The translations under genes and the position numbers were made by a program. Shown here piece by piece: positions 7,272-27,190 of a DNA stretch of 64,000 bases. Within the stretch, counting starts at the first letter, position 1. The number at the start of each line of letters is the position of its first letter. The DNA comes from Vulcanimicrobiota bacterium (GTDB lineage: Bacteria > Vulcanimicrobiota > Vulcanimicrobiia > Vulcanimicrobiales > Vulcanimicrobiaceae), in the NCBI GenBank assembly GCA_003168375.1, contig PMSI01000003.1:682001-746000 (forward strand), given 5' to 3'. The notes under the pieces were generated by a model. The model searched no databases. It was not told the origin of the DNA and saw only the letters and a program-made list of their open reading frames with translations.

Positions 7272-8384
7272 GTGGATGACGGTAAACACGATGACAAGCA
7301 CGTGACGGCCCACGATCTCCTGCCGTCCGATGTCGGGCTATTGCACCCGGAACAACATGTGTTTGAGGCGATGATCGAAGGATGGGGACGCCAGCAGCGT
7401 AGCCGTCAGCTAAAGCAGTCAGTGATCGAATCGAGAATCGCGCTCATTCGCGCCTTCGGACGCCACGCGGAACGATATCCCTGGCAATGGAATCCGGAAG
7501 ATCTCGAGTTCTACACCTCGCGTTGCTCAGAAGCCGGAAATCGATACTCAACGATTCGCGGAAAGCAAAATTCTATCAGGCAATTTTGCGAGTACATAAC
7601 GGATCCGCGGTACTCTTGGGTAACCCTCTGCGTCGACCGGTTCGGCTCCGCTCCCCAGCAGATTTGCCATGAATGGAATACGGTCGGCCACAACTCTGAC
7701 TATGAAGGCGACCCTGCGCGGCGTCCCCTTACAGCCTCGGAACTTGAAACACTCTTCGCCTGCGCTGATGATCGTGTGGATAAGATCCGCCGGCGAAGGC
7801 GTAAAGGCAGCCTCGCAGCATTCCGATCGAGCGCCTTCTACAAGGTCGTTTATTCTTTCGGCCTTCGCAACAGGGAGGCTTGCTTCATCGAGCTCGCTGA
7901 TTTTCTCCCGAACCCAGACCATAGCAAATATCGCTCGTTCGGCTCGTTACATGTTCGCTACGGTAAATCCGCTCATGGCGGACCGCCTCGACGTCGACTT
8001 GTCTATCTTCTACCGGAACTCGACTGGATCATCGACGTGCTTGCGCAGTATTTCTCCGAAATCCGACCCATCTTCAACCCCGGGCGCCTTCCGTATGTGT
8101 TCCTTACCGATCGCCACGGGCGCTTGAATCCGAAGCGCGTCGCCGAAGACTTTGCAGATCTTGTGCAAGAGGCGAACCTGCCGACGGCACTCGATCTACA
8201 TTGCTTGCGACATACGTACGCAACGCATATGGCTGAATGGGGATACGACGAGTATTTTCGACAGAAGCAGCTCGGACACGCATACGGTTCCTCGACGGGA
8301 ATCTACACTCATCTCGGCAGCGACTTCAAACGAAGCGCCATCCGCCTGGCACTCGCACGTGTCTACGGGGACTTCAAGCAATGA
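7272..8384 (+). CDS. Tyrosine-type site-specific recombinase/integrase
   Basis: A 370-residue protein with an N-terminal SAM-like core-binding region and a C-terminal catalytic domain. Visible catalytic residues are Arg199 (GLRNRE), Lys232, His310 and Arg313 (HCLRHTYATH), His336 (QLGH) and the nucleophile Tyr345 (IYTHLG). This full set indicates an active phage-integrase-fold recombinase that cuts and rejoins DNA through a 3'-phosphotyrosine. The start is a GTG at 7272. Its stop overlaps the next gene's start (ATGA), which makes it the first member of a coupled three-gene recombinase unit. Confidence 0.93.
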   Translation: MDDGKHDDKHVTAHDLLPSDVGLLHPEQHVFEAMIEGWGRQQRSRQLKQSVIESRIALIRAFGRHAERYPWQWNPEDLEFYTSRCSEAGNRYSTIRGKQNSIRQFCEYITDPRYSWVTLCVDRFGSAPQQICHEWNTVGHNSDYEGDPARRPLTASELETLFACADDRVDKIRRRRRKGSLAAFRSSAFYKVVYSFGLRNREACFIELADFLPNPDHSKYRSFGSLHVRYGKSAHGGPPRRRLVYLLPELDWIIDVLAQYFSEIRPIFNPGRLPYVFLTDRHGRLNPKRVAEDFADLVQEANLPTALDLHCLRHTYATHMAEWGYDEYFRQKQLGHAYGSSTGIYTHLGSDFKRSAIRLALARVYGDFKQ

Positions 8385-11084: not shown

Positions 11085-11810
11085 CTACTTCGTAAGCCAT
11101 TCCCCGTACGCTTCGATATCGATCATCGGGACCGTGCCGCTGAATTGCAGCTGCGAGATGAGTTTGAAAAGGAACGCCGTCGCAGGCTTGCTTTCATCGA
11201 CGAACGTGAAGCCGGACGTCTGCTGATCGTAGAAGAAGTGACCATGCGAGGCGACGCATCCGATGTCGAGACGCCCTTCAGAAACATCGGCTCGCAGCGC
11301 CCTTTCGAACGGCGTCCCAAGGGCAGGCCTCCAGTCGCTCTCGAAGGTCAAGAGCCCTCCGAGAATCGGGATCAACGGCTTAGCTGGGTATACACCCTTC
11401 GCGTATGGGATCGGTAGACTCGTGCGATACAGCCGACGCACGCTGGCGACTTTCTGTTGCGCGTAGTCGACGAGGTTCGCGTCGGCGGTCTGCTTCGCTT
11501 CGAACACAGCATAAACGCTCTCTGCTGGGACGATCGTCTGTCCCTCGTAGTCGAAGATGAACGGCGAGTACTGTCGGTCGAAGATCACCACGTCGATTTG
11601 TTGGCTGAAATTGCCTTTGCTGTCAACGACGTGCGCCTTAGCCGCCTGGTAACGTTTGGGCAGATACTTGTCGAACATGCTGATCCAGACGTTCTCGCTG
11701 GCGTCGCCCTTGGTACCGGGATGATTAAACGTCTTCCGCACCGTGGCGAGTCGCTGCTGGATGTCATCGTGCAGCGACGCGAGCAGTTGCGACAAAGACC
11801 ATTCAGACAT
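11085..11810 (-). CDS. DUF6602-like putative PD-(D/E)XK nuclease, candidate CBASS effector
   Basis: A 241-residue protein, last gene of the leftward CBASS operon, 30 nt after the CD-NTase stop and preceded by a GAGG site. An acidic GDASEN helix, QIDVVIFDR and AVFEAKQT supply the E, D and ExK pattern of restriction-endonuclease-like folds. The region resembles DUF6602 proteins. No NucC, SAVED, phospholipase or membrane effector is present in the operon, so this is the best candidate for the nucleotide-activated effector. No dedicated ligand-binding domain can be identified, and nuclease activity is inferred from the motif only. Confidence 0.7.
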   Translation of the reverse strand: MSEWSLSQLLASLHDDIQQRLATVRKTFNHPGTKGDASENVWISMFDKYLPKRYQAAKAHVVDSKGNFSQQIDVVIFDRQYSPFIFDYEGQTIVPAESVYAVFEAKQTADANLVDYAQQKVASVRRLYRTSLPIPYAKGVYPAKPLIPILGGLLTFESDWRPALGTPFERALRADVSEGRLDIGCVASHGHFFYDQQTSGFTFVDESKPATAFLFKLISQLQFSGTVPMIDIEAYGEWLTK

Positions 11811-11840
11811 CGAGAACCTCAGGATCGACTAGTGTAGCGA

Positions 11841-12740
11841 TCACGACAACGGAAATTTGGGGCCGAACATCTCGCGCCAAGCCTTGAGCGCTTCGCCGTT
11901 GCGCCCTCTTCGCACATGGTCGACCGCCAGCGTCGCCTCGCGCTCCGCGCCGCGCAGCAGTTCGCGCGCCCGCGTCTTCCGTTCGGCGTCCATGCCATCG
12001 CTGATCGCGGGGCCGAGGCCGGCCGGATCGGGCCACTCATCGAATATGCGGTCCGCAAGCGTCGCGAAGAACGCTTGCATTTCCCGATCGAAACTTCCGC
12101 CCCAGCCGCCGTGCAGGCATTGAAGCGCCATGACCTCGATGAGGAATGACGGCTTTACCGGCTTCTCGCCGTGCTTGGAGTTGTTGTTCCAGTACTTCAC
12201 CATGCGCACGAGGCCTTTCCACTCGCTGGAGTAAGCCTGGTGCGCGGCAGTGGCCTTGGCCGCGTGCGTCTGCGGATTCGTCTCGATCCATTTCGCCAGA
12301 TCGGCGTCTGGGATTTCGTAGTCTCCGTCCTTGTCGAACGCAGGGACCACGTCGACGCTGATGATGCGATAGTCCGTGTTGTCATCCACGTCCGCCTCGA
12401 CACCGAAATCGACGTTGATAGAGCGGTTTTGTTTCTTCGCGTTGTTCTTGCCGTATTTAGCGACGAGCGCGCTGTGGAAGTCGCCCAGCACCCGCGAGGG
12501 ATCCTCCGAACGATAGTGGTCCTCGGGCGACTTCAGCACGAAGAAGATGTCGACGTCCTTCAACGGTTTCGTCTTGGTCCACCTCGCGTAAGACCCGGTG
12601 AGGAAGCTGCGGTCGATCTTGAACTGGGTGTCCAGGTAGTCTCGCACTTCTTGTTGTCGCGCAGACGCATTCTCCTGTTCACGTTCGTTCAGTTCAAGAC
12701 GACTCTTAAACTTACGAAATGCTTCATCGATCGTCAGCAT
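11841..12740 (-). CDS. cdn: CBASS cyclic-oligonucleotide synthase (CD-NTase)
   Basis: ATG 12740 follows GGAGAA and overlaps the HORMA stop (ATGA); the frame is open further upstream, but that part is shadow. The 299-residue protein has the nucleotidyltransferase signature Gly49-Ser50, then Asp62-Val-Asp64 and Asp130 in SVDVVPAF. An all-helical SMODS-type C-terminal half follows. On phage infection such enzymes make cyclic di- or trinucleotides that switch on an effector. Product identity is unknown. Adjacent HORMA and TRIP13 genes place it in type III CBASS, where the HORMA protein activates the synthase. Confidence 0.93.
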
Positions 12741-13240
12741 CAGGTTCTCCGCAGATATGAAGTTCTCGCGCCAAGGCCGCTGTGTTCGACCGTAGTGCCG
12801 AGGCTCTGGCGAACCATGCCGGCCGTAGAACGGTAACTCCCAGTGCCCCACCCGTCGACGTTCGGTCGTCCCGGCTTGGTGTCCAACAGCAGACAGTAGC
12901 GCGCCTCGCTCGGCGCAACGCCAGCTTTCCGGATTGCATACTTCAGCTGCTCTGTGTCGGTCCAAAAGCTTCCGTCGCCTTCGGTCCAGCCGTATACGAT
13001 CTCGATGTCCCACCTCGTGATGAGCGCGCCCGTTTTCGGATTGTATATTTCAAGCGCGATGCCTCTGAGGTCACCGGAGTTCAACCACGTGCGCAAGCCA
13101 TTCATGTAGACCTGCCATTCGCCAACGAACTCGGCCGGGTTTAGCCCGCTCAACCGGATGATGTCCTTCAGGCTCTTGAGGATGTTGTCCGCCACGTAAG
13201 TGACGGAGTGAGTGTACGAGTAGACTGCGACGCTGGTCAC
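12740..13240 (-). CDS. cap7: Bacterial HORMA-domain protein of type III CBASS (Cap7-like)
   Basis: A 166-residue protein with a GTG start at 13240 that overlaps the previous gene's stop. The N-terminus ([17 protein letters not shown]) and the following strands ([20 protein letters not shown]) match bacterial HORMA proteins. In characterised systems these bind a peptide or phage-derived protein, close around it, and activate the CD-NTase. The TRIP13 ATPase disassembles the complex. Position between TRIP13 and the synthase supports the call. Confidence 0.85.
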
Positions 13241-13710
13241 GGTGCGAGAAAGCCCTTCGGGTCAATCGTCAACGATCCGGTTGCAGCAGCAGTCGCGTCG
13301 TCGGCCGCCACGTTGACTCCTAACTCTCGCGCAGTTATGCGACTACTACGCTGTGCAAGCGCGCTCTGCACCCAGGACAGGTCGTCCCTCTCGCATGGGA
13401 GCGAGATTCGCCAGTCGCCTTTGAGGGCGTCGAATCCCAACACGTCCTCGTTTGCGTCCGCGCCGTCCACAGCGTCGTCGGCATATACGCAATAGAGACG
13501 TGTGCGCGGCCCGTCGCACGTCACGACGATGGGCGCATCTTTCGGTGCTTCATCGGCGATGACGCTCGCGGCGACGCCGGCGACGCCGAGAAGTTCCGCG
13601 CGCACGTCGCCCGTCCGGTTCTCTGTGAGAAGATCGACGATAGCGCTCCAGGTCTCGGCGGCGTCGCGATAGGGGGAACTTCGGAACGTACGGCTCGCGA
13701 CGGTGCTCAC
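13237..13710 (-). CDS. Unrecognised 157-aa protein of the CBASS operon
   Basis: GTG start at 13710, overlapping the TRIP13 stop (GTGA), and its own stop overlaps the HORMA start, so it is translationally locked into the operon. The sequence is alpha/beta with no catalytic motif that I recognise. It ends in a disordered-looking Ala/Thr-rich stretch and a [10 protein letters not shown] tail. It could be a diverged second HORMA protein or a carrier of the closure peptide captured by HORMA. Both ideas rest on position alone. Confidence 0.8.
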
Positions 13711-14666
13711 GCCTTCCTCGTTCGTAGGGCGCGGTTGGCCTTGGTCGCTCTAGCCGCTTCGAGCAGATCGGCCGACGTCACCGCGCCGGGATTCATCGCC
13801 GTCGCGGGACTGCTCGCGAGCGCGTTTGCGACCATCTTACGAATGGCACGACCGTCGAGCCCAACGCATTCGTTGGCACATTGCACAAGCTGTGGCGAGT
13901 TCGTGATCTTACCGATCGCCGGGTAGATACGCGCGAGGCCGATCAAGCAATCCTCGAGAATCTTGGCGCACGCATTGCGGTCTGGCAACGGGATCTGGAG
14001 TACTAGGTCACAACGGGACGTGAACGCGGTGTCGACCGCTTCCGGAAAGTTGCTGGTCGCGACGAAGAGCAACTGCGTGTAACGCTCGGCAAGAGAGTCG
14101 AGCTGCACGAGGACCGCGTCCGTGGCGCGGTGCACGTCCACCGGATTCGCCTCGAAACTCGCCTTCGAGCGATCGACAGCAAGCGTCTCGATCTCGTCGA
14201 GGAGCACGATCGTAGGCCCGCCAGACGCCGCTTCTGCGATCGACTGCGAGAACAGCTCCGAAACGGCGCGCTGCGTTTTACCCATCGCGGAGCTTGTGAG
14301 TATATGCGGCTCGACCTCCAGCAAACGGAAGCCGCCCTCCGCGAACGATTCCGCGGTTCGATGTGCGAGCCCACGCGCGAGCGACGTCTTGCCGGTTCCG
14401 GGCGGACCAACGAGTAGGATGACGCCGTGAAGCGGAAGCACCGTCCGCGGCACCTTGCCCCGAACCGTGAAGTTCAGCACGGCCTGCGATAGCAGCTGTG
14501 TCTTGAGCTTTTCCTCGACGATGATCGACTGCCACAGCGCGCCCAGCTTTGGGTCGGGCAGGCTGCGGCTCCGGTTGATGCCCTTGGGTAGGTTGATCTC
14601 ATCGCCTTGGCGAGCGTGCGCGGTTCTCATTCCGCGCGCAATGTTCGATCTGGCGGCCTCGAACAC
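13707..14666 (-). CDS. cap6: TRIP13/Pch2-like AAA+ ATPase of type III CBASS (Cap6-like)
   Basis: A 319-residue AAA+ protein with Walker A GPPGTGKT (residues 87-94), Walker B IVLLDE (153-158), a sensor-1 Asn in VATSNFPE and a downstream Arg in FTSRCD. These match the TRIP13/Pch2 remodelers that unfold HORMA proteins and switch CBASS signalling off. It is the first gene of a five-gene leftward operon in which every junction but the last overlaps. The ATG at 14666 is used; an in-frame ATG at 14630 is an alternative. Confidence 0.9.
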   Translation of the reverse strand: MFEAARSNIARGMRTAHARQGDEINLPKGINRSRSLPDPKLGALWQSIIVEEKLKTQLLSQAVLNFTVRGKVPRTVLPLHGVILLVGPPGTGKTSLARGLAHRTAESFAEGGFRLLEVEPHILTSSAMGKTQRAVSELFSQSIAEAASGGPTIVLLDEIETLAVDRSKASFEANPVDVHRATDAVLVQLDSLAERYTQLLFVATSNFPEAVDTAFTSRCDLVLQIPLPDRNACAKILEDCLIGLARIYPAIGKITNSPQLVQCANECVGLDGRAIRKMVANALASSPATAMNPGAVTSADLLEAARATKANRALRTRKA

Positions 14667-15153
14667 CTGTTCGAGGCGCGACCATCAAGCGGGCTGGGAC
14701 GGACCCGCGAAACGCCGCTCCGGTGCTCTCCGTGGCGACCGGCGGCAAACCCCTTGCGCGGTCGTCGCGAGAGCCTCTGCCTTTCTATGCAGGACAAGCC
14801 ACCGAGTTCGGGTACAAAATATTAGCGGGGCACTGCGGGAATCTCGCCCGGGAAACAATGGGGACGCATGGAGTTCGGGGTTCCTCCTTGATGTTGGGCG
14901 AGCGTCGCGGGCGCTGCGACGTCCCCGCCGTCCCGCGGACGGCGCCGATCCGAGCCCGACCGGAGGGCCATAACATGCCCGTCTTGGCCGTCTCACATAC
15001 AGCCGGCTTTGTGCGAACGCGGGCACGGCTGGGACTCGTATGTGCGTCCGCTGACCGGCACAAATCGCTCCAATGGGCGGTTGGCGACGATACTATCCAG
15101 TCTCACAAGGGCCGTGGACATCGTACGCGCCCAGTTACGTGGGGACGACGCGT
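14667..15153. other. Intergenic region between divergent CBASS and Qat operons
   Basis: About 490 bp separates the leftward CBASS operon from the rightward Qat operon and should hold both promoters. ORFs run through it on both strands, but none looks like protein. I see no strong hairpin or recognisable -10/-35 pair. The first 81 bp depend on which qatA start is used. Confidence 0.5.
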
Positions 15154-17100
15154 GTGACCCTTTGGGCAGACAACGAGACAACGACGGACCTCCTCGGCTT
15201 CACGCCTTGGGTCAAAACCGTTGCGGAACTCGTGACGTCATCCGACATGCTTCCGGTGACGGTCGGAATCTTCAGCGACTGGGGAGGCGGCAAGACGAGC
15301 CTCATGACCATGTTGCATGACGACCTCGTCAAGCTCGATGGGGTTGTCGTCGCCGAGTTTCAGCCGTGGCTGCACCGAAGCTACGATGACGTACGCGGCG
15401 CTCTTATGGTCGCGATCGTCGACGCGCTAAATGCGAAGGTTCCGCTATGGGAGAAAGCCGGCAAGGCAGTCGGTAGCGAAGCAAAGGCGGAGCTCAAGAA
15501 GTTCGCGCGACGCATCGATTGGCTGCGCCTGATGAAGTTTGGCTTCAAAGCAGGCGGAGCGCTAGCAACAGTACTTCATGCACCACCCGTCGGGTTTGCA
15601 CTGGGCGCAGGTGCGCTGAGCGATCTGCCACACCTGCTTACGGACGCAACCGATGAGAAACCGAATGGCGACGGCGAAAGCGCCCCGGCGACGGCCGACG
15701 CCATCAAACCGAAAGAACGCGAGCTCGCCATCCAGCAAGCGGCGCCGCCGGTCGAGCGCGCAATTGCGGAGTTTCGTGAGGAGTTCAAGCATCTGCTCAA
15801 ACATCTGGGCATCGAGTCGCTCACCGTGCTCGTCGACGACCTCGACCGATGTTCGCCCGCTACGATTCTCGACACACTAGAGGCAATCAAGCTCTTCTTC
15901 GCGGTGCCACGCACGGCATTTGTAATTGGCGCAGATCAGCGCATTATCAAGCACGCTCTCGAAACGCGCTACCCGGAGACAGGACCCCTCGCGACAACTT
16001 TGGGCCGAGAATACCTCGAAAAGATCATACAAATTCCCGTGCAGATCCCGCCCCTGACGCCAGCGGAACTTGAGGCATACATGTACCTCCTCATCGTTGA
16101 GCGGCACCTTGGGCGCGGCGGCGATAAGGCAACATTCTCGACGTTCCGCGAGGCTGCGCTCGCGCGCATGGCCGGCAGCACCGGCGCAGTCGCGATAAAC
16201 TACGGCGTGATCAAGGAGCTACTCACCGATTTGCCCGAGACGCTCCAAGCCGATCTCGCACTTGTAGCGCAGGTTGCGCCAGTGCTTGCTCCGCAACTCA
16301 AAGGCAATCCACGCCAAGCCAAGCGCTTCCTCAACCTCGTGTTCCTTCGAGAGCGTCTCGCGAAGGCGATCGGCTTGACCGTCGACATGTCGGTTCTGGC
16401 GAAGTTGGCATCGCTCGAATACTTCGACGAGGAGGCCTTCTCTCAAATAGCAACCTGGAACGCCGAGGCGCCCGGTGCGTCGCCGCAAATTTGTGCGCTG
16501 GAAGCGTTCGCTAGTGGCGCTACTCTGCAAGCGGGCAAGGATCAGGACGCGCTGGAACGTTTCGTCGCGCCCGCGCGCGTCAGGGGATGGCTGAAATCAG
16601 CGCCGCTCATCGGGTCTGTGGACATCGGACCGTACGTCACTTTCGCGCGAGAGAAAGTTCGAGGCTTCGGCGCCCGCGAGCGGACGCTGCCGCCAGCAAT
16701 CCAAGATATTCTCGTTGGACTGCTGGACGACACCGCCGCCATCGCAAGCTCCGCTATGGAACGCGCAAAGGCGCTCGATACCGAGGATCAAGAATCGTTG
16801 TTCGCAACGTTGCTAGCGCGCCTTCCGTATGGAGAGGTCACGAACGCGCATGTCGATGCCGCCCTCGGGTTAATTGAGGTGGCGCCGTCACGCGCGCCTG
16901 GCTTCGCAGCAGCGCTCGGCGCCGTTGCACCGGATAACGTACCCGCCGATCTGCCGATGACAATTCGCATGCGCGTCCCGGCGTCAGTATCAACGTTCAT
17001 CCCGATCTTCGAAACTTGGGCGCGACTCGCCGAGCCCGCGATGCTCGCGAAGGTAGCGCAGCGCGCCATAAACGCGAGCACCGATAAAAAGAGAAGCTAA
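15154..17100 (+). CDS. qatA: QatA: KAP-family P-loop NTPase
   Basis: About 648 residues from GTG 15154, which follows GGGGA and begins VTLWADNETTTDLLGF, the usual N-terminus of the family. The frame is open back to ATG 15073, but that 27-residue extension looks non-coding. Walker A is DWGGGKTS near residue 51 and Walker B is LVDDLDR, both typical of KAP NTPases, with hydrophobic stretches between them. QatA is the NTPase of the QatABCD anti-phage system. qatB starts two bases after the stop. Confidence 0.92.
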   Translation: MTLWADNETTTDLLGFTPWVKTVAELVTSSDMLPVTVGIFSDWGGGKTSLMTMLHDDLVKLDGVVVAEFQPWLHRSYDDVRGALMVAIVDALNAKVPLWEKAGKAVGSEAKAELKKFARRIDWLRLMKFGFKAGGALATVLHAPPVGFALGAGALSDLPHLLTDATDEKPNGDGESAPATADAIKPKERELAIQQAAPPVERAIAEFREEFKHLLKHLGIESLTVLVDDLDRCSPATILDTLEAIKLFFAVPRTAFVIGADQRIIKHALETRYPETGPLATTLGREYLEKIIQIPVQIPPLTPAELEAYMYLLIVERHLGRGGDKATFSTFREAALARMAGSTGAVAINYGVIKELLTDLPETLQADLALVAQVAPVLAPQLKGNPRQAKRFLNLVFLRERLAKAIGLTVDMSVLAKLASLEYFDEEAFSQIATWNAEAPGASPQICALEAFASGATLQAGKDQDALERFVAPARVRGWLKSAPLIGSVDIGPYVTFAREKVRGFGARERTLPPAIQDILVGLLDDTAAIASSAMERAKALDTEDQESLFATLLARLPYGEVTNAHVDAALGLIEVAPSRAPGFAAALGAVAPDNVPADLPMTIRMRVPASVSTFIPIFETWARLAEPAMLAKVAQRAINASTDKKRS

Positions 17101-17102
17101 CA

Positions 17103-17816
17103 TTGGGCACATCTAGTTCCTACTCGTCACCGACGACACTCCCGTGGAAACGCGCCAAGAACGCCACCTCCCGCTTCGCATCTGGCGGCGGCGAAGCCGG
17201 CGGTCGGAGCCCCGCCCTGCCCATCGCACGCTTCGTCCAGGCGCTCGGCGGCGCTCGCGAAGCCGCACGTGAGGCGCCGGTCGGGCGAGCGGTTGCAAAC
17301 CGCCTTCTTGCATTTGGGCAAGCAACCGCACAGCGCGGGATCGATGCGGCGCTGCGCGAGTTCGGCCTTGAAGACGCCGTCGGTCTCGCGGCCGACGAGG
17401 CGCTCCAACGCATCGTCGACACACTGGCGGCCGGCGCAAACACTCTCGATGAAACCGCGGCGCGCGAGGCACTTGTCGACGTTATACGGGAGTTGCTCGA
17501 GGACTCCGACGACGTCGAGGATGCGTTCGGGGACCTTGACGTAGTCGGTGCTTTGGACCTGCTGCGCCGCTTCATCGCAGCCTACATCTTCCGACGTTTC
17601 GCGAAGGCGCTAGGAGATCGCTTGCGCGCGCACGCAGAAAGTGCTCCGGCGGCGCGAAGGCGTGAGGAAGAGATGAAACGCTACATCGCCGCCGAGGTTG
17701 TGATCGCTTTCGAAGACATCGACGTCGAAACGCTCGATTGGCGAAATGATACGGAACGCATCATTGAACGATGCATGCGCGAAGCGTTCCGCACACTCGG
17801 AGACGAAGATGCCTAA
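17103..17816 (+). CDS. qatB: QatB defence protein
   Basis: A 237-residue protein starting at TTG 17103 with MGTSSSYSSP, the characteristic QatB N-terminus. The rest is helical and Ala/Arg/Glu-rich with no enzymatic motif. Its function in Qat defence is not known. It overlaps the qatC start by 8 nt. Confidence 0.88.
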   Translation: MGTSSSYSSPTTLPWKRAKNATSRFASGGGEAGGRSPALPIARFVQALGGAREAAREAPVGRAVANRLLAFGQATAQRGIDAALREFGLEDAVGLAADEALQRIVDTLAAGANTLDETAAREALVDVIRELLEDSDDVEDAFGDLDVVGALDLLRRFIAAYIFRRFAKALGDRLRAHAESAPAARRREEEMKRYIAAEVVIAFEDIDVETLDWRNDTERIIERCMREAFRTLGDEDA

Positions 17817-19164
17817 ACGCAACGTGTACGTTCGAACGTCGCCGGCGGACACCGTCCCACCTTCTCTATCGGATGCCCTCGTCGTGAGCGATCTGGCCGA
17901 AGGCTCGACATTGTCGCACGATATCCATCGAATAACCGACGTGGTTGGCGAACCACTGCCCGCGGCGCGCGATCTCTTCACGTTTGCCGGCGCAGTATAT
18001 GTCGCCGATAAGAAGACACCGCGTAAATCCACTGCGGACGCATGGACGCGCGACTTCGAGGTCCGGATGCCTGTCGCCGACGTGGAGCGATGGGAAAGTG
18101 CTCGACCCGCGCTTGAAAGGTCACTGAGCTTCCTCACAGGCGATACTTGGAGTCTGCGCTTTCGGCGCGGAATTCGACGACCCGTGCGCGCGCGGAAGGC
18201 CGGCGCGTCTTATAATGCAGTGCACCTCTTTTCTGGAGGTTTGGATTCGCTCATTGGGGCGATTGACGCTCTTGCGGGCGATGAGCGGCTATTGCTTCTC
18301 GGCCATCACGATTCGGGCCTGACGGAGCCTCCACAGAAGATCCTATCTTCGGCGCTCGACGACGAATATGAGAATCTCAGCACGTTCGTGCCAGTGCGGG
18401 CTCGAGGGAAGACCAGTGGTTTATCGGCGTTTCCCTTGCCGGCAGGTTCAGAGAACACTACGCGCAGTCGATCGTTAGTCTTCATCGCAATGGGCCTCGT
18501 GGGGGCATCCGCGCTGGGCGCAAATGTAACACTGCGTATACCAGAAAATGGCCTCATCGCCCTCAACGTACCGCTTGTGCCCGAACGGAGCGGGAGTTGC
18601 AGCACACGGACGACGCATCCCCACTTCCTCGCCCAGCTACGGCAAGCGCTAGACGTGCTCGGCATCAGAAACGAGCTCGACAATCCGTATCTCTTGTTGA
18701 CCAAAGGCGAAATGCTTGAGCATTGCCGGAACCCGGAACTCATCCGTAAAATCGGCTATGCCAGCGTGTCATGCTCGCGCTCCGAACAAGCTCGATGGGA
18801 CGGCAAGAAGAACTTTCCCAAGAACTGCGGTTACTGCTATCCGTGCATCATCCGACGAGCGGCATTTCATGCAATCAACGAGGATCGCTTTCGAGAGCGC
18901 ACCGGACTTGAACGGTATCGCATTGACGTTTGCAAGAAGCCTGACTTCGTGCACGAGCCAGTTACTGGACGTGATCTTCGCGCGGTATTGGCCGCCGTCG
19001 GCGCCGGCCCTAAGCGACTTAACCCTTTGCTTTCGGGGCCGGTACCCGCGGACGTTACGATGGAACAACTCTCGCACCTGCATGCGCGTGGCATCCAGGA
19101 GCTGCGCGACTTCTTCGAACAAAAGGGATCGCGTGGGGTGAAGTCCTACGCAGGGATCGCCTGA
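17809..19164 (+). CDS. qatC: QatC: QueC-like PP-loop enzyme
   Basis: A 451-residue protein from ATG 17809. The PP-loop ATP-binding motif is SGGLDS (residues 142-147), and a QueC-type zinc site is visible as a lone upstream Cys plus CGYCYPC. QueC makes preQ0 from carboxydeazaguanine with ATP and ammonia. QatC proteins are longer homologues used in anti-phage defence and probably modify another target. It overlaps qatB and is followed by the convergent qatD. Confidence 0.92.
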   Translation: MPKRNVYVRTSPADTVPPSLSDALVVSDLAEGSTLSHDIHRITDVVGEPLPAARDLFTFAGAVYVADKKTPRKSTADAWTRDFEVRMPVADVERWESARPALERSLSFLTGDTWSLRFRRGIRRPVRARKAGASYNAVHLFSGGLDSLIGAIDALAGDERLLLLGHHDSGLTEPPQKILSSALDDEYENLSTFVPVRARGKTSGLSAFPLPAGSENTTRSRSLVFIAMGLVGASALGANVTLRIPENGLIALNVPLVPERSGSCSTRTTHPHFLAQLRQALDVLGIRNELDNPYLLLTKGEMLEHCRNPELIRKIGYASVSCSRSEQARWDGKKNFPKNCGYCYPCIIRRAAFHAINEDRFRERTGLERYRIDVCKKPDFVHEPVTGRDLRAVLAAVGAGPKRLNPLLSGPVPADVTMEQLSHLHARGIQELRDFFEQKGSRGVKSYAGIA

Positions 19165-19357
19165 GGCCTTCCGCATCCACACGCTCAGTGGCGAAGACCC
19201 GTCGGATCTCAGCCGGGACCAAGGGCGAGACCGCAATCACAGTGCTGCCCGTTTCAGAGTTTGACGGTGGCCAGCAAATGCGATCGGACACCTCGCAGAT
19301 TCACCCCCGCTCAAGATCGTGATTTCCCTCTCTTTACGAAGCAACGTCGCCTTCAAC

Positions 19358-20122
19358 TCAGGGAAACAAACAGGGCGTTGATACCACGACCCCTGTCCTG
19401 ACAGCCTCCAAATTCCGTGCCAATTGGGCTCTGACATCTCTGATGTCGGCGCTCCATAGACGCGCCACCGCCGCGTAAACAGCGCGGACGTCTGAAGGCG
19501 AGGCGGGCTTCCCACGGTGCCGTGCGTACGGTCCGTCACTCTCAGCAAGCACGCGTTCGCGAGGAAGGAAACGCAGAATGTCCGTTCCCTTCGCGGATGC
19601 AATCATCGCCGTGTTTATTGAAAGCAGATGCCCCGCGCTCAACACAGCATCTAATTCAACTCTGCTGCCGGAAAACCAGTGCAGGACCGCCCCTGTCAAC
19701 TGCGCGTCCGCAAGGTGTTTTAAGACGGGCCGGACGGCGCGTCGCGAATGCACGGTGATAAGGCGAGGTCGATCGCGTAACATTGAGAGAACCTTGGCGA
19801 ACACGCGCTCCTGAGCGGCGCGATCAGCGGCGGGTGAGAAGTCGAGGCCGACCTCGCCGATGTGATCGGCAGTCGTGACTTTGGACTGGAAGATGCGCCA
19901 CTCACCTTCGTGCATCTTGGCGGCCTCGACCGGGTGCGCGCCAAGCGCGAAGCTCACGTGCGGCGCGAACGGCAGCCGTGCTTGCAGTCGTTGACGATGG
20001 CTTGGAAGGTTTGTGACCGCGATGATCTCGACCTCAGCACGCGCCGCCTCAGCGGCTGGTTCGAACGGCCGAAAATAGGCGTCGAGATGACAATGGGTGT
20101 CGACAAAGGGGGCGACGATCAA
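19358..20122 (-). CDS. qatD: QatD: TatD-family metal-dependent hydrolase
   Basis: A 254-residue TIM-barrel hydrolase with all TatD metal ligands: THCH, Glu in HIGEVGLD, His in TVHSRRA, His in VLHWFSG and Asp in AESDGP. TatD proteins are DNases or related phosphoesterases. Together with qatABC it completes a Qat system. It lies on the opposite strand, tail to tail with qatC (193 bp apart), rather than as the fourth gene of one operon, so it must have its own promoter. Confidence 0.9.
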   Translation of the reverse strand: MIVAPFVDTHCHLDAYFRPFEPAAEAARAEVEIIAVTNLPSHRQRLQARLPFAPHVSFALGAHPVEAAKMHEGEWRIFQSKVTTADHIGEVGLDFSPAADRAAQERVFAKVLSMLRDRPRLITVHSRRAVRPVLKHLADAQLTGAVLHWFSGSRVELDAVLSAGHLLSINTAMIASAKGTDILRFLPRERVLAESDGPYARHRGKPASPSDVRAVYAAVARLWSADIRDVRAQLARNLEAVRTGVVVSTPCLFP

Positions 20123-20332
20123 CGGTGTCTCCGGCGGCGTACCACGACTTCTGAGATTTGATTGCCGTCCTCAGTTGCGCAGACCTGCGGGCGTGACTTC
20201 CTTCTCGACCGGCTCACAGATTCTCGGCGGGCCGCGACCTTGTCGACGCGACGATTCTGGCCGTCCCTACTGCGGAACCACTTCGAGCCCGTCGTCGACC
20301 GCCGTCTCGTCGGTCACCCGGGGATGTAGCGG

Positions 20333-20360
20333 CTAGGATATGTACCGGTTACCAGTAAAG
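20333..20360 (+). repeat. Dispersed intergenic repeat, copy 1 (degenerate left part)
   Basis: AGGATAT-N7-TTACCAGTAA with spacer GTACCGG. The left GGAATA box is degraded to GGGATG about 15 bp upstream. It lies 163 bp before the ATPase gene at 20496. Confidence 0.75.
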
Positions 20361-20399: not shown

Positions 20400-20447
20400 A
20401 GTTCGCAAGGCGTGGAGTGCCGACGAGCACATCACACCTTGCGAACT
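20400..20447. repeat. 48-nt near-perfect hairpin before the ATPase gene
   Basis: Two 21-nt arms (20400-20420 and 20427-20447) flank the loop CGACGA. Eighteen of 21 positions are Watson-Crick pairs. The other three are one G-T wobble and two mismatches. The outer 11 bp (AGTTCGCAAGG / CCTTGCGAACT) are perfect. It ends 48 bp before the ATPase start, so it could be a leader RNA structure, an operator, or a cruciform/recombination site. Confidence 0.85.
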
Positions 20448-20495: not shown

Positions 20496-22367
20496 GTGCG
20501 ACGAGTCTATCTGACTTCCATAAGCACGAACAGCGGTTTCCTGGAACACTCACCCGTCAGATTTGACCGAAAGTTGACTTGCATCATAGGCGCGCGCGGT
20601 ACCTGCAAGTCGACCGTCGTAGAATCAATCCGATTCGCCTTCAATGTCGACAATGACCGAGTCGCAGAAATCCTCGATAACGACAGAGGCGTTATCAGAA
20701 AGACTCTCGGCTCCGGCACCGTGACGTGTGAATTGACGGTAGAGGACGGGGCGCGGCAAGAATCATATATCGTTGAGCGCGAAATGGATGGCCGACCACG
20801 TCTGCTCCGCGACGGTGTTCGCGACGCGGTGAATGATGATCTACTCGATGAAGTTGAAATATACTCTCAAAGCGCATTACAACAGCTCGCTTCCGCTGAT
20901 CACCCTCAAAAACGACTTCAACTTATAGATCGCCCGCATCGGGGCGTGCTCCTAGACCAGGTGAAACGCATTGAGCGGGATGTAGCAACGCTGAAGCAAA
21001 TCGGCTCAGCTGTACGATTGACTCGAATGGAACTCGAGCGGCTGCGAGCGCAACTACGCGAGCTCCCCCAGGTCCGCTCGGAGCTCGCACAAGCGCTGGA
21101 GAATCGCCCGGCGCTCCCGCCATCCTTGCAAGAACAGCATTCGCAGTATTTGCAGCGACAGCGAACTCTAGAACTTATCGTCGAACTTAGGGATTTACGC
21201 AACACGGCCACGGGCATCTTAGATGCCCTCGCGCCAGCCCGATCCACGGCAGCGTCGATACGAACGCGAATAGCGTCAGAAGCAACCTCCCGGCCCGAAG
21301 TCCCGCTGGCGGTTCTCGACCGCATCGACGCCGACCTTCTGACGGCCGAGGCGATAAAAGCATCGATCGCCGGTATTGATATTGACGCTGCCTGGACCGC
21401 GCTCGTCAGCGACTTCGAACAGCTCGATGAAGCTTATTATAAGCAGCGTCAACAGCAGCAGGCTGTCAGCGAATCCCTCAAGCGCGAAGATCAACTACGC
21501 CGTCGCTTGGCCGAGTTAGAAAAAGCCGACCGAGACTTCGAACAGTTTCAGACACAATTTGAGGACGCTACGGCACAACGTCGAGGGCTTCGGGCCGAGG
21601 TAGCTCAGAGTCGGGAAACCATCTTTGAGACGAGGGTCTCGGAGGCGGATCGCATAAATCGTGAGTTCGGCGCCGTCGTTCTTCTCACCGTTCGCCGCTC
21701 AGGCTTTACTAGTCCCTACGTAACGCGTCTTAGTCGCATGCTGTTGGGATCCCGTATACGTGAACAGGATGAGATCGCTAAGGGCCTTGCAACATCTTTC
21801 AGCGCTACAGATCTCCTCCAAATCATCGAAGACGGCGACATCCCGCGCGTGGCGAACGTCCTTGGGCGAGACGTAGGCCAAGTCAGTCGTGTCCTTGCAT
21901 ATCTTCGAGATCACCCCGACTTGTATGAGCTCGAGGGAACGCTGCTTGACGACGCCCTCGACATTACTATGTTTGACGGTGGTGTGCCGAAGGCTGTCGA
22001 TCAACTCTCCGAGGGCCAACGCGCGACAGCACTTCTGCCTCTAATCCTACGAGGATCCACGGGCCCACTGATTATTGATCAGCCGGAGGATGATCTCGAC
22101 AACAACTTCATCTATGAAGTGCTGGTCAAGAACATCTCGCGGCTAAAGATCGAACGACAGCTAGTCTTCGTTACGCACAACGCCAATATCCCGGTTTTAG
22201 GTGAGGCTGAATCGATTGTCGTAATGAATATGGCGTCGCCGCGCAAGGCTGCACCCCCACGAACTGGACCATTGGATGCCCGCAAGGATGACATACTTCA
22301 TCTTCTCGAGGGCGGTCGCGAGGCATTCGAGCGGCGGGAAGCACGCTACGGCAAACTCCTGTCGTGA
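20496..22367 (+). CDS. SMC/RecF-like AAA ATPase with atypical Walker A motif
   Basis: A 623-residue ABC-type ATPase like those found in many defence islands. The N-terminal P-loop reads GARGTCKS (residues 32-39), with Cys37 where GxxxxGK[ST] has Gly. A coiled-coil-rich middle (about 150-390) follows, then the signature LSEGQ (504-508), Walker B LIIDQPEDDLD (from 525) and the switch His in VTHNAN. Overall order matches RecF/SMC/TrlF-type ATPases that sense or remodel DNA. It overlaps the kinase-like gene by 4 nt (GTGA), so the two products probably work together. Confidence 0.88.
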   Translation: MRRVYLTSISTNSGFLEHSPVRFDRKLTCIIGARGTCKSTVVESIRFAFNVDNDRVAEILDNDRGVIRKTLGSGTVTCELTVEDGARQESYIVEREMDGRPRLLRDGVRDAVNDDLLDEVEIYSQSALQQLASADHPQKRLQLIDRPHRGVLLDQVKRIERDVATLKQIGSAVRLTRMELERLRAQLRELPQVRSELAQALENRPALPPSLQEQHSQYLQRQRTLELIVELRDLRNTATGILDALAPARSTAASIRTRIASEATSRPEVPLAVLDRIDADLLTAEAIKASIAGIDIDAAWTALVSDFEQLDEAYYKQRQQQQAVSESLKREDQLRRRLAELEKADRDFEQFQTQFEDATAQRRGLRAEVAQSRETIFETRVSEADRINREFGAVVLLTVRRSGFTSPYVTRLSRMLLGSRIREQDEIAKGLATSFSATDLLQIIEDGDIPRVANVLGRDVGQVSRVLAYLRDHPDLYELEGTLLDDALDITMFDGGVPKAVDQLSEGQRATALLPLILRGSTGPLIIDQPEDDLDNNFIYEVLVKNISRLKIERQLVFVTHNANIPVLGEAESIVVMNMASPRKAAPPRTGPLDARKDDILHLLEGGREAFERREARYGKLLS

Positions 22368-24280
22368 ATCCCGATGCTATCATCGCAGGAGCTACCGACG
22401 CCTTTGAAGGCAGCCTTGATTCCCTATCGCGTGATCTCGGTATCGCCCGCTTAGTTGCAGCACTGGAAGTACTCGACAAGAGTGGTCTCCCGAGCGTCGA
22501 AAAGGAACGGCGCTTTCAAATAATATTCGCTCGGGCAAAATACTCTGGCGACGAGCTCGGCCGTCTCGCGACGGCAGCCGCAAGCTTATCCAGTTTGTTG
22601 CTGAGGAATGCGGTCGCCGGCTCCCTGCCCGCCGAGCTCCGCCCGGTTGCGTATGGTACTGCGACGACGACTGCTACACAAACAAGTGCTTTCGCGCAGC
22701 CGTCATCGCCAAGCTCAGTACAGGTCAACGGCAAAGAAGATAAGACCGACGAGCGAGCAATTCCGGTCGACTTCTCCGATGTTCTGATTCTTTCTGCTAA
22801 CGACGAGCCAGGAATAACTTCGTTACTCAGCGGGGCGAGTTTCGCGCCATATCGCTGTGCTACGCTTGATGCTTTGCCAACTATGCTCAGCTCCGGCGCT
22901 GGCATATGCGCCGTGCTCGTCGAGCCGTCTTTCCTAAACATGCTCGACAAGCCGGAGCAACTCGATCTCATGCGGCTTTTGGCCGCGTTTTCAACTTTCA
23001 GCTTCGTTAGATGTCAATCCGAAGGTCTTAAGGTATCCGAACCCGAGGTCCAAGACATCGTACGGGCTCAGCGATGCCGCAAGCATGCTCCTACAGTTGA
23101 GGAGCTTTCCATCCGTGACCGCATCTTGCAAGAGCGTGAACTACCCAATATTTCGGCGGCGCGAGATCGGTTAACGGCGGGAGCGCAGACCGGCCTATTC
23201 ACTCCTGGTGAATTGACGGCCGCTGAGATCAGCTTGCTGGCGTCAGCTATGGCGCGCTACTCGCAAGAGCGTCACTTCACGCAGCGCTTTGAGCTCACGT
23301 CTTTGAAAACGCAGTTTTTTCGGGATGGAGCCTCTGGTGCAAGGGTCGCGCTCGTGCGGGTGAACGATCTGCGCATGCCAGTGGTCGTTAAGCTTGACGC
23401 GAAGGAGCGGATTATTGAGGAGGCGCAACGCTTCTATACCTACATACTTCGCGATAACAATGACCTGAATCCGGAAATTCACTTTCACGGACCTGCCGCG
23501 CTCATAATCTTTGATGTAATCCCACAGGATGGAGTCGATGCTGAAGCGGCTCCCGGGCTGCGTGAGGTTCTTCGGGATCTTTGGTTTGCCGAAATGAATA
23601 CTAAGAAGGCCTATCCTGTAACCGATAGCCTCGTCGCTGGATTTAAGCACGCTACGCAAAGACTCGTTGCGCTGAACAGTAGACCGTCATTTGAAGCACA
23701 ATTCACCTGCAAGGCGAATCCTCAGATAACCCTTATCAAGGAGATGGAGGATGTGGGCTTCCATTGGGGTCTTGGACCAGCCCTAGTTGAAGCGCGAGAT
23801 GAAGCAGCGCGCGTCATGGAGACGGCGGCCACGAAGGCAATATGTCACGGAGATGCACATGCTTCAAACGTACTAATACGTGCGAACCAGGGTTTCTTAA
23901 TTGACTACGCCCTGAGCGGACCTGGTCACCCCTGCGCTGACCTGGTGAAGCTGGAGCTGTCGTTGTTCCTTACATTCTTTCACCCGTTCGGCTCCGTAGA
24001 GCAACTCGTCGCATTCCAGCGCGACTTGACCAATGGCGAAGATAGCGTTACGACTCTCGAAGAGCGCTACAAGCCACTCATGCTCTCAAGAAGCAACGTT
24101 CTCTGCTTGCGACTGTGTGTCATAGCCAGAGACGCGACGGCCCCCGTCCTAGAGGCACACGGTCTTGGTCACGAACACTATGTCGCGGTAAAGCGTCTCA
24201 CCGCGTGGCAGTCGCTGCTTATCCCGTCACTGCAGCAATCTCTAGTGCGAGTCGTTATTCAGGCTTTACAGGAGCCCTAA
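22364..24280 (+). CDS. Pseudo-receiver-like plus APH-like phosphotransferase fusion protein
   Basis: A 638-residue protein with a GTG start overlapping the ATPase stop. After about 135 residues a Rossmann-like segment (DVLILSANDEPG ... CAVLVEP) resembles a degenerate receiver domain without clear acidic-pocket residues. The C-terminal half is an aminoglycoside-phosphotransferase/kinase fold with a likely ATP Lys343 (VVVKLD), catalytic loop HGDAHASN (495-502) and metal Asp514 (LIDYA). The substrate is unlikely to be an antibiotic in this context. It may phosphorylate or nucleotidylate a protein partner, which is inference. Confidence 0.8.
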   Translation: MNPDAIIAGATDAFEGSLDSLSRDLGIARLVAALEVLDKSGLPSVEKERRFQIIFARAKYSGDELGRLATAAASLSSLLLRNAVAGSLPAELRPVAYGTATTTATQTSAFAQPSSPSSVQVNGKEDKTDERAIPVDFSDVLILSANDEPGITSLLSGASFAPYRCATLDALPTMLSSGAGICAVLVEPSFLNMLDKPEQLDLMRLLAAFSTFSFVRCQSEGLKVSEPEVQDIVRAQRCRKHAPTVEELSIRDRILQERELPNISAARDRLTAGAQTGLFTPGELTAAEISLLASAMARYSQERHFTQRFELTSLKTQFFRDGASGARVALVRVNDLRMPVVVKLDAKERIIEEAQRFYTYILRDNNDLNPEIHFHGPAALIIFDVIPQDGVDAEAAPGLREVLRDLWFAEMNTKKAYPVTDSLVAGFKHATQRLVALNSRPSFEAQFTCKANPQITLIKEMEDVGFHWGLGPALVEARDEAARVMETAATKAICHGDAHASNVLIRANQGFLIDYALSGPGHPCADLVKLELSLFLTFFHPFGSVEQLVAFQRDLTNGEDSVTTLEERYKPLMLSRSNVLCLRLCVIARDATAPVLEAHGLGHEHYVAVKRLTAWQSLLIPSLQQSLVRVVIQALQEP

Positions 24281-24356
24281 ATGCCTGGCGTTGACTATGC
24301 GCTAACCGAAGTAGTTCACTGCAAGTCGCAGCGCGAGAATCGGTGTTATTGAGGCA

Positions 24357-24635
24357 TTGGATACCTGCGTCGACCGCCATTTCTCGGCCGTGATGCTGCA
24401 GTCAGCGGCCTCGCTCTTGGTCGTCATGGGTAAAGCCCGCAGACCAGTGCGGCGCTTAGTCGACATCGATCCCGGCGTGCGAATGGCCGATTTAGAGTTA
24501 AGTGGTCGGCAGCGGCTCATCGTCTTCTTAGGCCACCCCACTGGTAATGAACGTCGGACCTTCGTCGACGTTTATGCGGACGAGTTGCCGCGAATGAGGC
24601 AAGCCGTTGCGTCTGCACTAAGCGGATCCCCTTGA
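24357..24635 (+). CDS. Small uncharacterised protein, possibly frameshifted at its 5' end
   Basis: The only start in frame is TTG 24357 (92 residues). However, an ATG at 24281, immediately after the kinase stop, opens another frame for 23 codons. A one-base shift near 24340 would join the two into a protein of about 118 residues, MPGVDYALTEVV ... RIGVIEALDTC. The C-terminal part (VDIDPGVRMADLELSG ... FVDVYADELPRMRQAV) looks like a real small alpha/beta domain. No family recognised. Confidence 0.45.
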   Translation: MDTCVDRHFSAVMLQSAASLLVVMGKARRPVRRLVDIDPGVRMADLELSGRQRLIVFLGHPTGNERRTFVDVYADELPRMRQAVASALSGSP

Positions 24636-24688
24636 GCGGACCCGCGGCGTCAAGGGTTTCCTTGGCCATAGGAGCAAGGGCGCGTTGA

Positions 24689-25636
24689 ATGTCACTCGCC
24701 GACATAGCACTTCAAAGCGCACTGAGTTTCGCCGCTGAATCAACGGCTCGCTTCTATCATCAATTTCCTGACGCCTATGAGACCTCGCTCGATCACTCTC
24801 TGCTTTTCAACGTGCAACGGGACGTGGCACTCGATAATGAACGGACGCTTGGCGACGGCTCGTCCTATGGAATCGCTGTTAGGTTTATAGGCGGCCCTGG
24901 GGGCCAGCTCGTGGATCGTAGCGACCCGACAAAGAGGGTCGAGGTCGCTGACCTTGCGATACTGCTAAAGAGCCTGTGCAGCCCTACTAAGCTGCTTCTT
25001 CTCCAGTCAAAGAAATTCAAAGCGAAATCGTTGCCAAAACAGCTGTACGGTGGACATGACTTGGACGACTTACGCGCCGTCGTTCAGAGATCAATGACGA
25101 ATCGACGCTCCTTTGATTCATCAACCTCGTACGGGTCGTCGAGGGTTAATCAGTGGATCGCTATAGCAGCAGTTAATCGTGCATCGCGGAGGCTTCACGG
25201 GCACGACTTGATACACTACCTATTTTACCATCCGCCCTACTATCTTGGGATGCCGCCGTCGACTGGTGGGACCGTTGGACTACGCGTTGTACAGCAATCG
25301 GACTGTCGTCTGCGCACGATGGATGCGTCGAAGATTCGGGCTCGCTTCGGCAACGACTTGACAGAGTTTGCGCGCTTCGTCATCGCGGCAATCAATTGCA
25401 AGTTCGGCATCCCGATCCGTGGCACCGGAAGACTTGGCGCCCCCTACGACGCGGGCGGCGACGGCCACCTATTCGACTTCGGCGTAACGAGGGCGGATTT
25501 TGCGGCAGAGGTCGACGCGCTCGGCGCAGAGGCGGCTGCTAAGACGTTCTCATTCAATGAGCCGATCTTAGACCTTTCCGAATGCCCGACCACTATTATT
25601 TCGGTTGAGCCCGTTAGTGACGAAACTCCAGCGTAG
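24689..25636 (+). CDS. Uncharacterised defence-island protein with possible nuclease motif
   Basis: A 315-residue protein with ATG 24689, 53 bp after the small ORF. EVADLAILLK followed by KLLLLQSKKF gives an Asp88 ... Gln106-x-Lys108 arrangement, a known variant of the PD-(D/E)XK active site. The rest (for example HYLFYHPPYYLG) matches nothing I recognise. Position in a run of same-strand genes with an ATPase, a kinase-like protein and a nuclease-TOPRIM fusion suggests the same system. Confidence 0.65.
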   Translation: MSLADIALQSALSFAAESTARFYHQFPDAYETSLDHSLLFNVQRDVALDNERTLGDGSSYGIAVRFIGGPGGQLVDRSDPTKRVEVADLAILLKSLCSPTKLLLLQSKKFKAKSLPKQLYGGHDLDDLRAVVQRSMTNRRSFDSSTSYGSSRVNQWIAIAAVNRASRRLHGHDLIHYLFYHPPYYLGMPPSTGGTVGLRVVQQSDCRLRTMDASKIRARFGNDLTEFARFVIAAINCKFGIPIRGTGRLGAPYDAGGDGHLFDFGVTRADFAAEVDALGAEAAAKTFSFNEPILDLSECPTTIISVEPVSDETPA

Positions 25637-25758
25637 CCGAGAGCGTCGGGACTCGTTTTCTGCGGCGTTAACTGCCGCAAAACATCGCGGACATGCACTG
25701 TGCGCGAATTGAAAGTCGGAGGGTGCTTTGATAGGTCATTGTCAGTGAGCGAGGCGCA

Positions 25759-26790
25759 ATGACGATGCCGACGTACCGGCCCACTATGTATATCGAGGCG
25801 TTCGCAAGACTCAGCAGCGTCACCCATCCGCCCGCGAATTGGGCGCAGCTACGCGGTTTGGCGTTCGAACGCCACCTGCACGACGTCTTGAAGGCGCAAC
25901 TGCTTCAGCCGCGGACATCGTTTCGGCCGTCCGGCGAGCAGGTCGACGGCTCCTTCTTGCATCGCGGTCGCATATATCTCCTGGAAGCAAAGTGGACGAA
26001 AGACTCGCTGCCGGCCTCTTCGATCTATGCGTTCAAAGGAAAAGTCGATGGTAAGTTAATCGGGACGGTCGGCATCTATATCTCAATGGCCGGTTACGAC
26101 GAAGACACGGTTAACGCACTGGTCGTCGGCAAAGATTTGAATGTGCTTCTCTTTGATAGCGATGACTGGTTGCGGTCACTGAAGTCCGCCGACGGCTTCG
26201 CGCGCGTTCTCGACTATAAGTTGAGGGCGGCGGCCGAAGAGGGCACCCCCTTTGCAGCCTCGTCCGGCCTACTGAGCGCATCGACAGCCGGCGACTCCTT
26301 GAGCTCGGTAGCCATAGTCACCGAAGGCAGAATGGATGAACACATCGTTCAGTGTCTCATTAGAAGGTTGACGCTCCAAAGACCGGTTAGAGTCGTGAAC
26401 GCCAATGGAGCTGCTAACCTGCCTCGCATCGTGAGGCTCGTTGTAGATTTGGACTCCGCCCAAGACGTGATCGCCGTCGTCGATGATGACGCTGCCGGTG
26501 CCGCAGCAGAACTTCAGTTGCGCGAAGCCGGACCGCAGGTCTTCGTGGTTCGAGCGGACCCCTATCTTGACGTTGCCCTTGCCGATGAGATCCGTGCATT
26601 GGTCACGACGATGGATGCTTACAGGGCGAAACCTTACGACGCGCGGGTCGCGATCGTGCGCGACGCGATCGCTAACATGCCTCTGCCTGCGCTTCTCCAA
26701 AACGCAACGATTCGGCGGTTGCTCAAGCGGCTTAGCGACATCGGGGCGTGGAATGGGGACGGGCTCGCTGACCTGGACGTCTCGAATTGA
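25759..26790 (+). CDS. Restriction-endonuclease-like plus TOPRIM fusion protein
   Basis: A 343-residue protein. The N-terminus is Mrr-like, with Glu37 (AFERHL), Asp63 (GEQVDGSF) and Glu76-x-Lys78 (YLLEAKW). After residue 180 a TOPRIM-like core appears: Glu189-Gly (IVTEGRMDE) and the acidic cluster 242-244 (AVVDDDAAG). OLD-family nucleases use a C-terminal TOPRIM fused to an ATPase. Here it is fused to a second nuclease fold, while the ATPase is a separate upstream gene. An in-frame ATG at 25765 is an alternative start. Confidence 0.8.
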   Translation: MTMPTYRPTMYIEAFARLSSVTHPPANWAQLRGLAFERHLHDVLKAQLLQPRTSFRPSGEQVDGSFLHRGRIYLLEAKWTKDSLPASSIYAFKGKVDGKLIGTVGIYISMAGYDEDTVNALVVGKDLNVLLFDSDDWLRSLKSADGFARVLDYKLRAAAEEGTPFAASSGLLSASTAGDSLSSVAIVTEGRMDEHIVQCLIRRLTLQRPVRVVNANGAANLPRIVRLVVDLDSAQDVIAVVDDDAAGAAAELQLREAGPQVFVVRADPYLDVALADEIRALVTTMDAYRAKPYDARVAIVRDAIANMPLPALLQNATIRRLLKRLSDIGAWNGDGLADLDVSN

Positions 26791-27145: not shown

Positions 27146-27190
27146 GAGGAATACACCCTGGTTGGAATATGCCGGCCTTACCAGTAAACG
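27146..27190 (+). repeat. Dispersed intergenic repeat, copy 2
   Basis: Complete copy: GGAATA-N10-GGAATAT-GCCGGCC-TTACCAGTAA. The spacer CACCCTGGTT is shared with copy 7 at 44.7 kb. A perfect hairpin follows within a few bases. Confidence 0.85.

Follow-up and report, generated by a model that had tools for sequence, protein, structure and literature searches.

A TrlF-type ATPase and an APH-type kinase as a candidate defence pair, related to a three-gene module that appears to be unnamed, in a defence island of a Vulcanimicrobiota bacterium

TrlF and the anti-phage protein Ppl have, as their defining domain, an N-terminal PHP phosphoesterase in addition to an SMC-like ATPase part, and Gabija, PARIS and OLD-type systems are ATPase-TOPRIM systems. 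Detocs is a two-component phage defence system whose effector is fused to a receiver that a histidine kinase phosphorylates, this effector being a nucleotide-cleaving enzyme and not an APH-type kinase; the system is not known to include an SMC-like ATPase. The name of another domain relevant here, TCAD9, comes from the vWA-MoxR-VMAP ternary conflict systems (PMC7159879, PMC10910872). Here, we compare with these systems a cluster of five genes, P1 to P5, from a Vulcanimicrobiota bacterium with a genome of 4.43 Mb, a member of a small phylum represented here by 149 genomes. The window referred to throughout is the whole stretch of DNA that was analysed, 64,000 nucleotides in length.

An ORF check verified the coordinates and shared plus strand of the five ORFs, as well as the 4-nt overlap of the first two, all as described in an earlier note on this DNA. 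That note had also placed the cluster in a defence island, and this setting is real, since a complete type III CBASS and then a complete Qat system lie immediately upstream of P1-P5. The CBASS genes, encoding NucC, CD-NTase, HORMA, and TRIP13, occupy 11085–14666 on the minus strand, and the Qat genes occupy 15073–20122 on mixed strands, with QatA (15073–17100), QatB (17103–17816), and QatC (17746–19164) on the plus strand and QatD (19358–20122) opposite to them on the minus strand. At the start of the window is a class II ribonucleotide reductase gene with a LAGLIDADG intein (1256–7123, plus strand), a locus conserved in relatives, and after it, at the edge of the island, a tyrosine integrase gene (7272–8384, plus strand). 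Between the integrase and the CBASS lies a 728-aa ORF (8707–10893, plus strand) with no Pfam or PADLOC match.

P1 (20496–22367, plus strand; 623 aa) is a stand-alone TrlF/Ppl-type SMC-like ATPase that has no PHP domain. It had been read as SMC/RecF-like, and this assignment can now be sharpened to TrlF type, with an E-value of 3.7e-81 against the TrlF model NF045780 (274 bits, under the NCBIfam cut-off of 350) and of 7.5e-33 against the Ppl model (113 bits, under the NCBIfam cut-off of 1000). P1 aligns over the whole length of the ATPase part of TrlF and Ppl, but it stays below both curated cut-offs, starts directly at the ATPase with no PHP gene preceding it, and is paired with a kinase gene. 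Unlike in the fused TrlF and Ppl, a PHP-like gene in another genome (G095) is separate and adjoins the ATPase gene. The motifs of P1 are a Walker A GARGTCKS (residues 32–39), a signature LSEGQ (504), and a Walker B IIDQPEDD (526). When P1 is aligned with ten ATPases of the three-gene module described below, its signature and Walker B are intact, and its Walker A has cysteine at the site before the lysine, where 10 of the 11 sequences have glycine; this substitution could weaken ATP binding. Within the phylum, P1 has matches in only eight other genomes, most of them weak, and none of the six phylum genomes whose neighbourhood was read has a P2 beside a P1-like gene.

P2 (22364–24280, plus strand; 638 aa) carries an APH/TCAD9 kinase in its C-terminal half. 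Its earlier description as an APH-like phosphotransferase is borne out by scores over the cut-offs of both PF01636 (APH; 34.1 bits versus 23.2) and PF19974 (TCAD9; 65.2 versus 40). The kinase motifs are a GASGAR loop (322), K343, HGDAHASN (495), and IDY (513), and the catalytic residues, i.e., H495, D497, and N502 of HxDxxxxN and D514 of IDY, are intact. A TCAD9/APH-type kinase domain is what P2 has in common with the vWA-MoxR-VMAP ternary systems, while a Pfam scan of the cluster proteins found no vWA, MoxR, or VMAP. The pseudo-receiver that the earlier note saw in P2 did not hold up, in that neither hmmsearch nor hhalign found a receiver in residues 1–300 when these were compared with 13 genuine receiver domains, and the AlphaFold model of P2 (pLDDT 33) is uninformative on a receiver. 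Direct searches with P2 returned no relative from 117 genomes of the class, GTDB contigs, or plasmids, and class genomes, GTDB contigs, plasmids, and the phylum yielded no other case of precisely this P1-P2 pairing.

Searches of plasmids with P1 revealed, in Vibrio, Shinella, Klebsiella, and Rhodococcus, a mobile module of three contiguous genes that encode a PHP-less TrlF-type ATPase (~610 aa), a soluble histidine kinase, and a receiver-APH/TCAD9 kinase. Searches with the third protein of this module also found it in Rhizobium, Caballeronia, Leclercia, Pantoea, and Phaeobacter. The loci of Photobacterium and of two viral contigs, near-identical to each other, came from contig scans; the genome-contig scan with an alignment that contained P2 returned one module, that of Photobacterium, together with four generic APH proteins. 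The complete modules are located on plasmid, viral, or chromosomal sequences, their hosts being Alpha-, Beta-, and Gammaproteobacteria and Rhodococcus, and their gene order is identical in 12 of 12 loci (L033–L036, L045–L047, L064–L066, L068, and L069). The receiver-APH family was not found in phage records, a DNA search of E. coli genomes with the Klebsiella module gave no match, and a Piscirickettsia plasmid carries a module remnant without the ATPase, an instance of module decay.

Across the module proteins, invariant residues include E7, D8, D53, T90, and K125 of the receiver; H96, N194, D232, and the G-box residues of the histidine kinase, whose N-terminus looks HEAT-like by eye; and H338, D340, N345, and D358 (HxDxxxxN and the IDY Asp) of the APH-type kinase. 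With a histidine kinase and a receiver-APH kinase following the ATPase, the signal in the three-gene module is very probably a phosphorelay. Phylogenetically, the module ATPases form one clade (support 100/99) apart from PHP-linked TrlF, and P1 sits next to this clade on a very long branch with weak support (75/73). Neither PADLOC 2023 nor NCBIfam 2026 has a model for the kinase components of the module beyond generic domains, and literature searches on TrlF with a histidine kinase or response regulator gave nothing relevant; the module is apparently unnamed so far. A role in defence is supported by the neighbours of two copies, as the Caballeronia module adjoins Hachiman and the Vibrio module lies near AbiEii.

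P1-P2 share with this module (e.g., L035, L045, and L065) the type of ATPase, the kinase family, and the gene order. P1 matches a profile of the module ATPases at an E-value of 9e-79 over residues 5–620, i.e., its full length; the TCAD9 model is matched by both P2 and the module receiver-APH kinases; and hhalign relates P2 to the receiver-APH family (96.9%, E-value 1.8e-10) over residues 303–544. The kinship of P2 was reached only through the neighbours of P1 relatives and is demonstrated only for its kinase part, APH kinases being widespread. On the other hand, the pair has no histidine kinase and no detectable receiver, and P2 is ~160 aa longer than its module counterpart. No match to the profile of the module histidine kinase (A5) was found in the window, and the genome outside the window has no module-type histidine kinase; what matched there did so partially and in the ATPase domain of histidine kinases of other types.

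On balance, and with slightly better than even confidence, we read P1-P2 as an ATPase-kinase defence pair, a predicted operon of two genes, that is kin to the three-gene module and lies beside independent nucleases, i.e., as a divergent counterpart of the module from which the histidine kinase was lost or in which it was never present. P1 would sense an abnormal state of DNA, such as foreign or damaged ends, and would then switch on P2, an APH-type kinase which, as the effector, would phosphorylate a cellular or phage target and so stop phage growth or the cell. Coupling of P1 to P2 in the window would probably be direct, with no phosphorelay, which fits the absence of a histidine kinase and of a detectable receiver. 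The signalling through a kinase that had been proposed earlier is right in part: in the relatives it looks like a real two-component phosphorelay, but the window has no cognate histidine kinase and no detectable receiver. The Detocs logic of a histidine kinase acting on a receiver-effector would apply to the three-gene relatives as well, whereas the window pair is without such a relay. We suggest more tentatively, and at rather less than an even chance, that PHP-less TrlF-type ATPases are the first component of a novel class of mobile modules for defence with an APH-type kinase as effector, acting in most bacteria via a histidine kinase on a receiver-APH kinase and, in the window, directly.

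Downstream of P2, the 92-aa ORF P3 (24357–24635, plus strand) has a TTG start and is a doubtful gene: no Pfam or NCBIfam family scored over its cut-off, none of the loci read contained a homologue, and P3 may not be a real gene. P4 (24689–25636, plus strand; 315 aa) is an orphan and possibly a PD-(D/E)xK-like nuclease. Its D-QxK motif (D88 and Q106-S-K108), noted earlier, is present and kept in one homologue, while no known family in Pfam or NCBIfam is matched, and its AlphaFold model (pLDDT 31) is unusable. The only clear relative of P4 (29% identity) is flanked by DrmMI and DrmA in the class 1 DISARM locus of another genome (G054; L038, 8726–9748, minus strand), where this D-QxK protein is possibly a DISARM accessory; a Rubrobacter plasmid has a weaker match to the G054 protein, and direct searches with P4 found no relatives on plasmids, in phages, or on viral contigs.

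P5 (25759–26790, plus strand; 343 aa) combines an Mrr-type nuclease with a probable TOPRIM domain, so that the fusion of a PD-(D/E)XK nuclease to TOPRIM read in the earlier note is borne out for its first half and only probable for its second. The nuclease part is barely over the Pfam Mrr_cat cut-off (21.3 versus 21), and three aligned sequences all keep D63 and E76-x-K78 (E76-A-K78 in P5); the C-terminus scores 18.2 against OLD-like_TOPRIM, below the cut-off of 23.2, and weakly matches two more TOPRIM models, though E and DDD motifs (E189 and DDD at 242) are there. Relatives that reach into the TOPRIM part are solitary on a Klebsiella plasmid, and shorter ones lie near VapBC genes. In prophage regions, P5-related Mrr-TOPRIM genes were seen as single cargo genes (L116, 7986–8972; L117, 55–798). 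The likeness of the cluster to Gabija, PARIS, and OLD-type systems consists of an SMC-like ATPase near a TOPRIM-bearing protein and yields only weak partial matches; here, the probable TOPRIM domain forms one protein with an Mrr nuclease, a protein found solitary elsewhere, rather than being fused to or paired with an ATPase. P5 reads as a member of a single-gene family and probably works on its own as a restriction nuclease.

The island also contains a 42-bp repeat, with the consensus GGAATAYN10GGAATATGN6TTACCAGTAAA and ending in TTACCAGTAAA, of which a matrix search located seven copies in the window, all on the plus strand, at 20318, 27147, 31007, 32262, 34059, 36598, and 44703 (span 20318–44744). 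The copies score 35–57 bits versus at most 6.5 bits in one shuffle, with a matrix partly built from the same copies. The exact 11-mer of the repeat occurs only three times in the genome, and a search allowing up to two mismatches found six genome copies, in both cases all inside the window. The repeats split the island into cassette-like segments, and those flanking P1-P5 are 6.8 kb apart: a degenerate copy on the left (20318–20359), followed by a hairpin (20400–20447), and a copy on the right (27147–27188) with a strong hairpin after it (DNA z = −4.2). Relatives have single or paired copies, four of which lie 1–2 kb downstream of the ribonucleotide reductase gene that is also found at the start of the window. 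The repeats are possibly recombination sites, and no recombinase linked to them was found. Relatives carry the site with no homologue of the integrase at 7272–8384 in the stretches read, so the repeat is at most a putative attachment site of that integrase; a promoter function is unlikely, because some copies face genes of the same sense and others genes of the opposite sense.

These features bear on whether P1-P5 are a single multi-gene defence system, with the ATPase as sensor, the kinase as relay, and P4 and P5 as nuclease effectors, as in the five-part scheme of the earlier note. The genes do share a strand and fairly close spacing, and a 42-bp repeat copy stands at both ends of the cluster, but the gap before P5 is 122 nt and that from P2 to P4 ~410 nt if P3 is not a gene. 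Moreover, relatives of P5 are solitary on plasmids and in prophages, the relative of P4 is within DISARM, and no relative of P4 or P5 adjoins any of the 12 complete module loci, so we regard a single system of five components as quite improbable. By the earlier note's own yardstick, under which a lack of co-occurrence of homologues elsewhere would count against the scheme, it fails for P3-P5. Since their relatives occur without P1-P2 and are missing from complete modules, P4 and P5 appear to be separate defence genes and neighbours by chance; bracketed by the repeats, the five genes may nevertheless have travelled as one unit, with or without a joint function. What stands of the claim to an undescribed system is P1-P2 as a candidate ATPase-kinase system, because its distant relatives form a conserved three-gene module without a name in PADLOC 2023 or NCBIfam 2026, and not a system of five components.

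Two further readings concern P1 and P2 themselves. They might have nothing to do with each other, P1 being a degenerate TrlF ATPase and P2 an adjacent APH/TCAD9 kinase with some other function, e.g., small-molecule phosphorylation; the long branch and unusual Walker A of P1, the weak profile match of P2 beyond its kinase core, and the abundance of APH-like kinases across the phylum are consistent with this, yet the two genes overlap by 4 nt and follow the ATPase-then-APH order of the conserved module, and we consider such a chance pairing unlikely. Decay of the island, with P1 and the N-terminus of P2 as degenerating remnants of a three-gene module after loss of the histidine kinase and of receiver function, strikes us as very unlikely. 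It would agree with the lack of a module-type histidine kinase in window and genome, with the undetectable receiver, with the Walker A substitution in P1, and with the decay seen on the Piscirickettsia plasmid; against it, neither reading frame is truncated or interrupted by a stop, and the signature and Walker B of P1 are intact, as are the motifs of the P2 kinase.

If the reading of P1-P2 as a defence pair akin to the three-gene module is true, bacteria would combat mobile DNA with an SMC-like ATPase that senses DNA and is linked to a classical phosphorelay and to an APH kinase, which would tie two-component signalling and antibiotic-kinase-like enzymes to immunity. The compact three-gene cassette, which is also available from culturable Enterobacterales and Vibrionaceae, would be open to direct testing, and the direct ATPase-kinase pair of the window would be an example of how a relay of this kind may become shorter.
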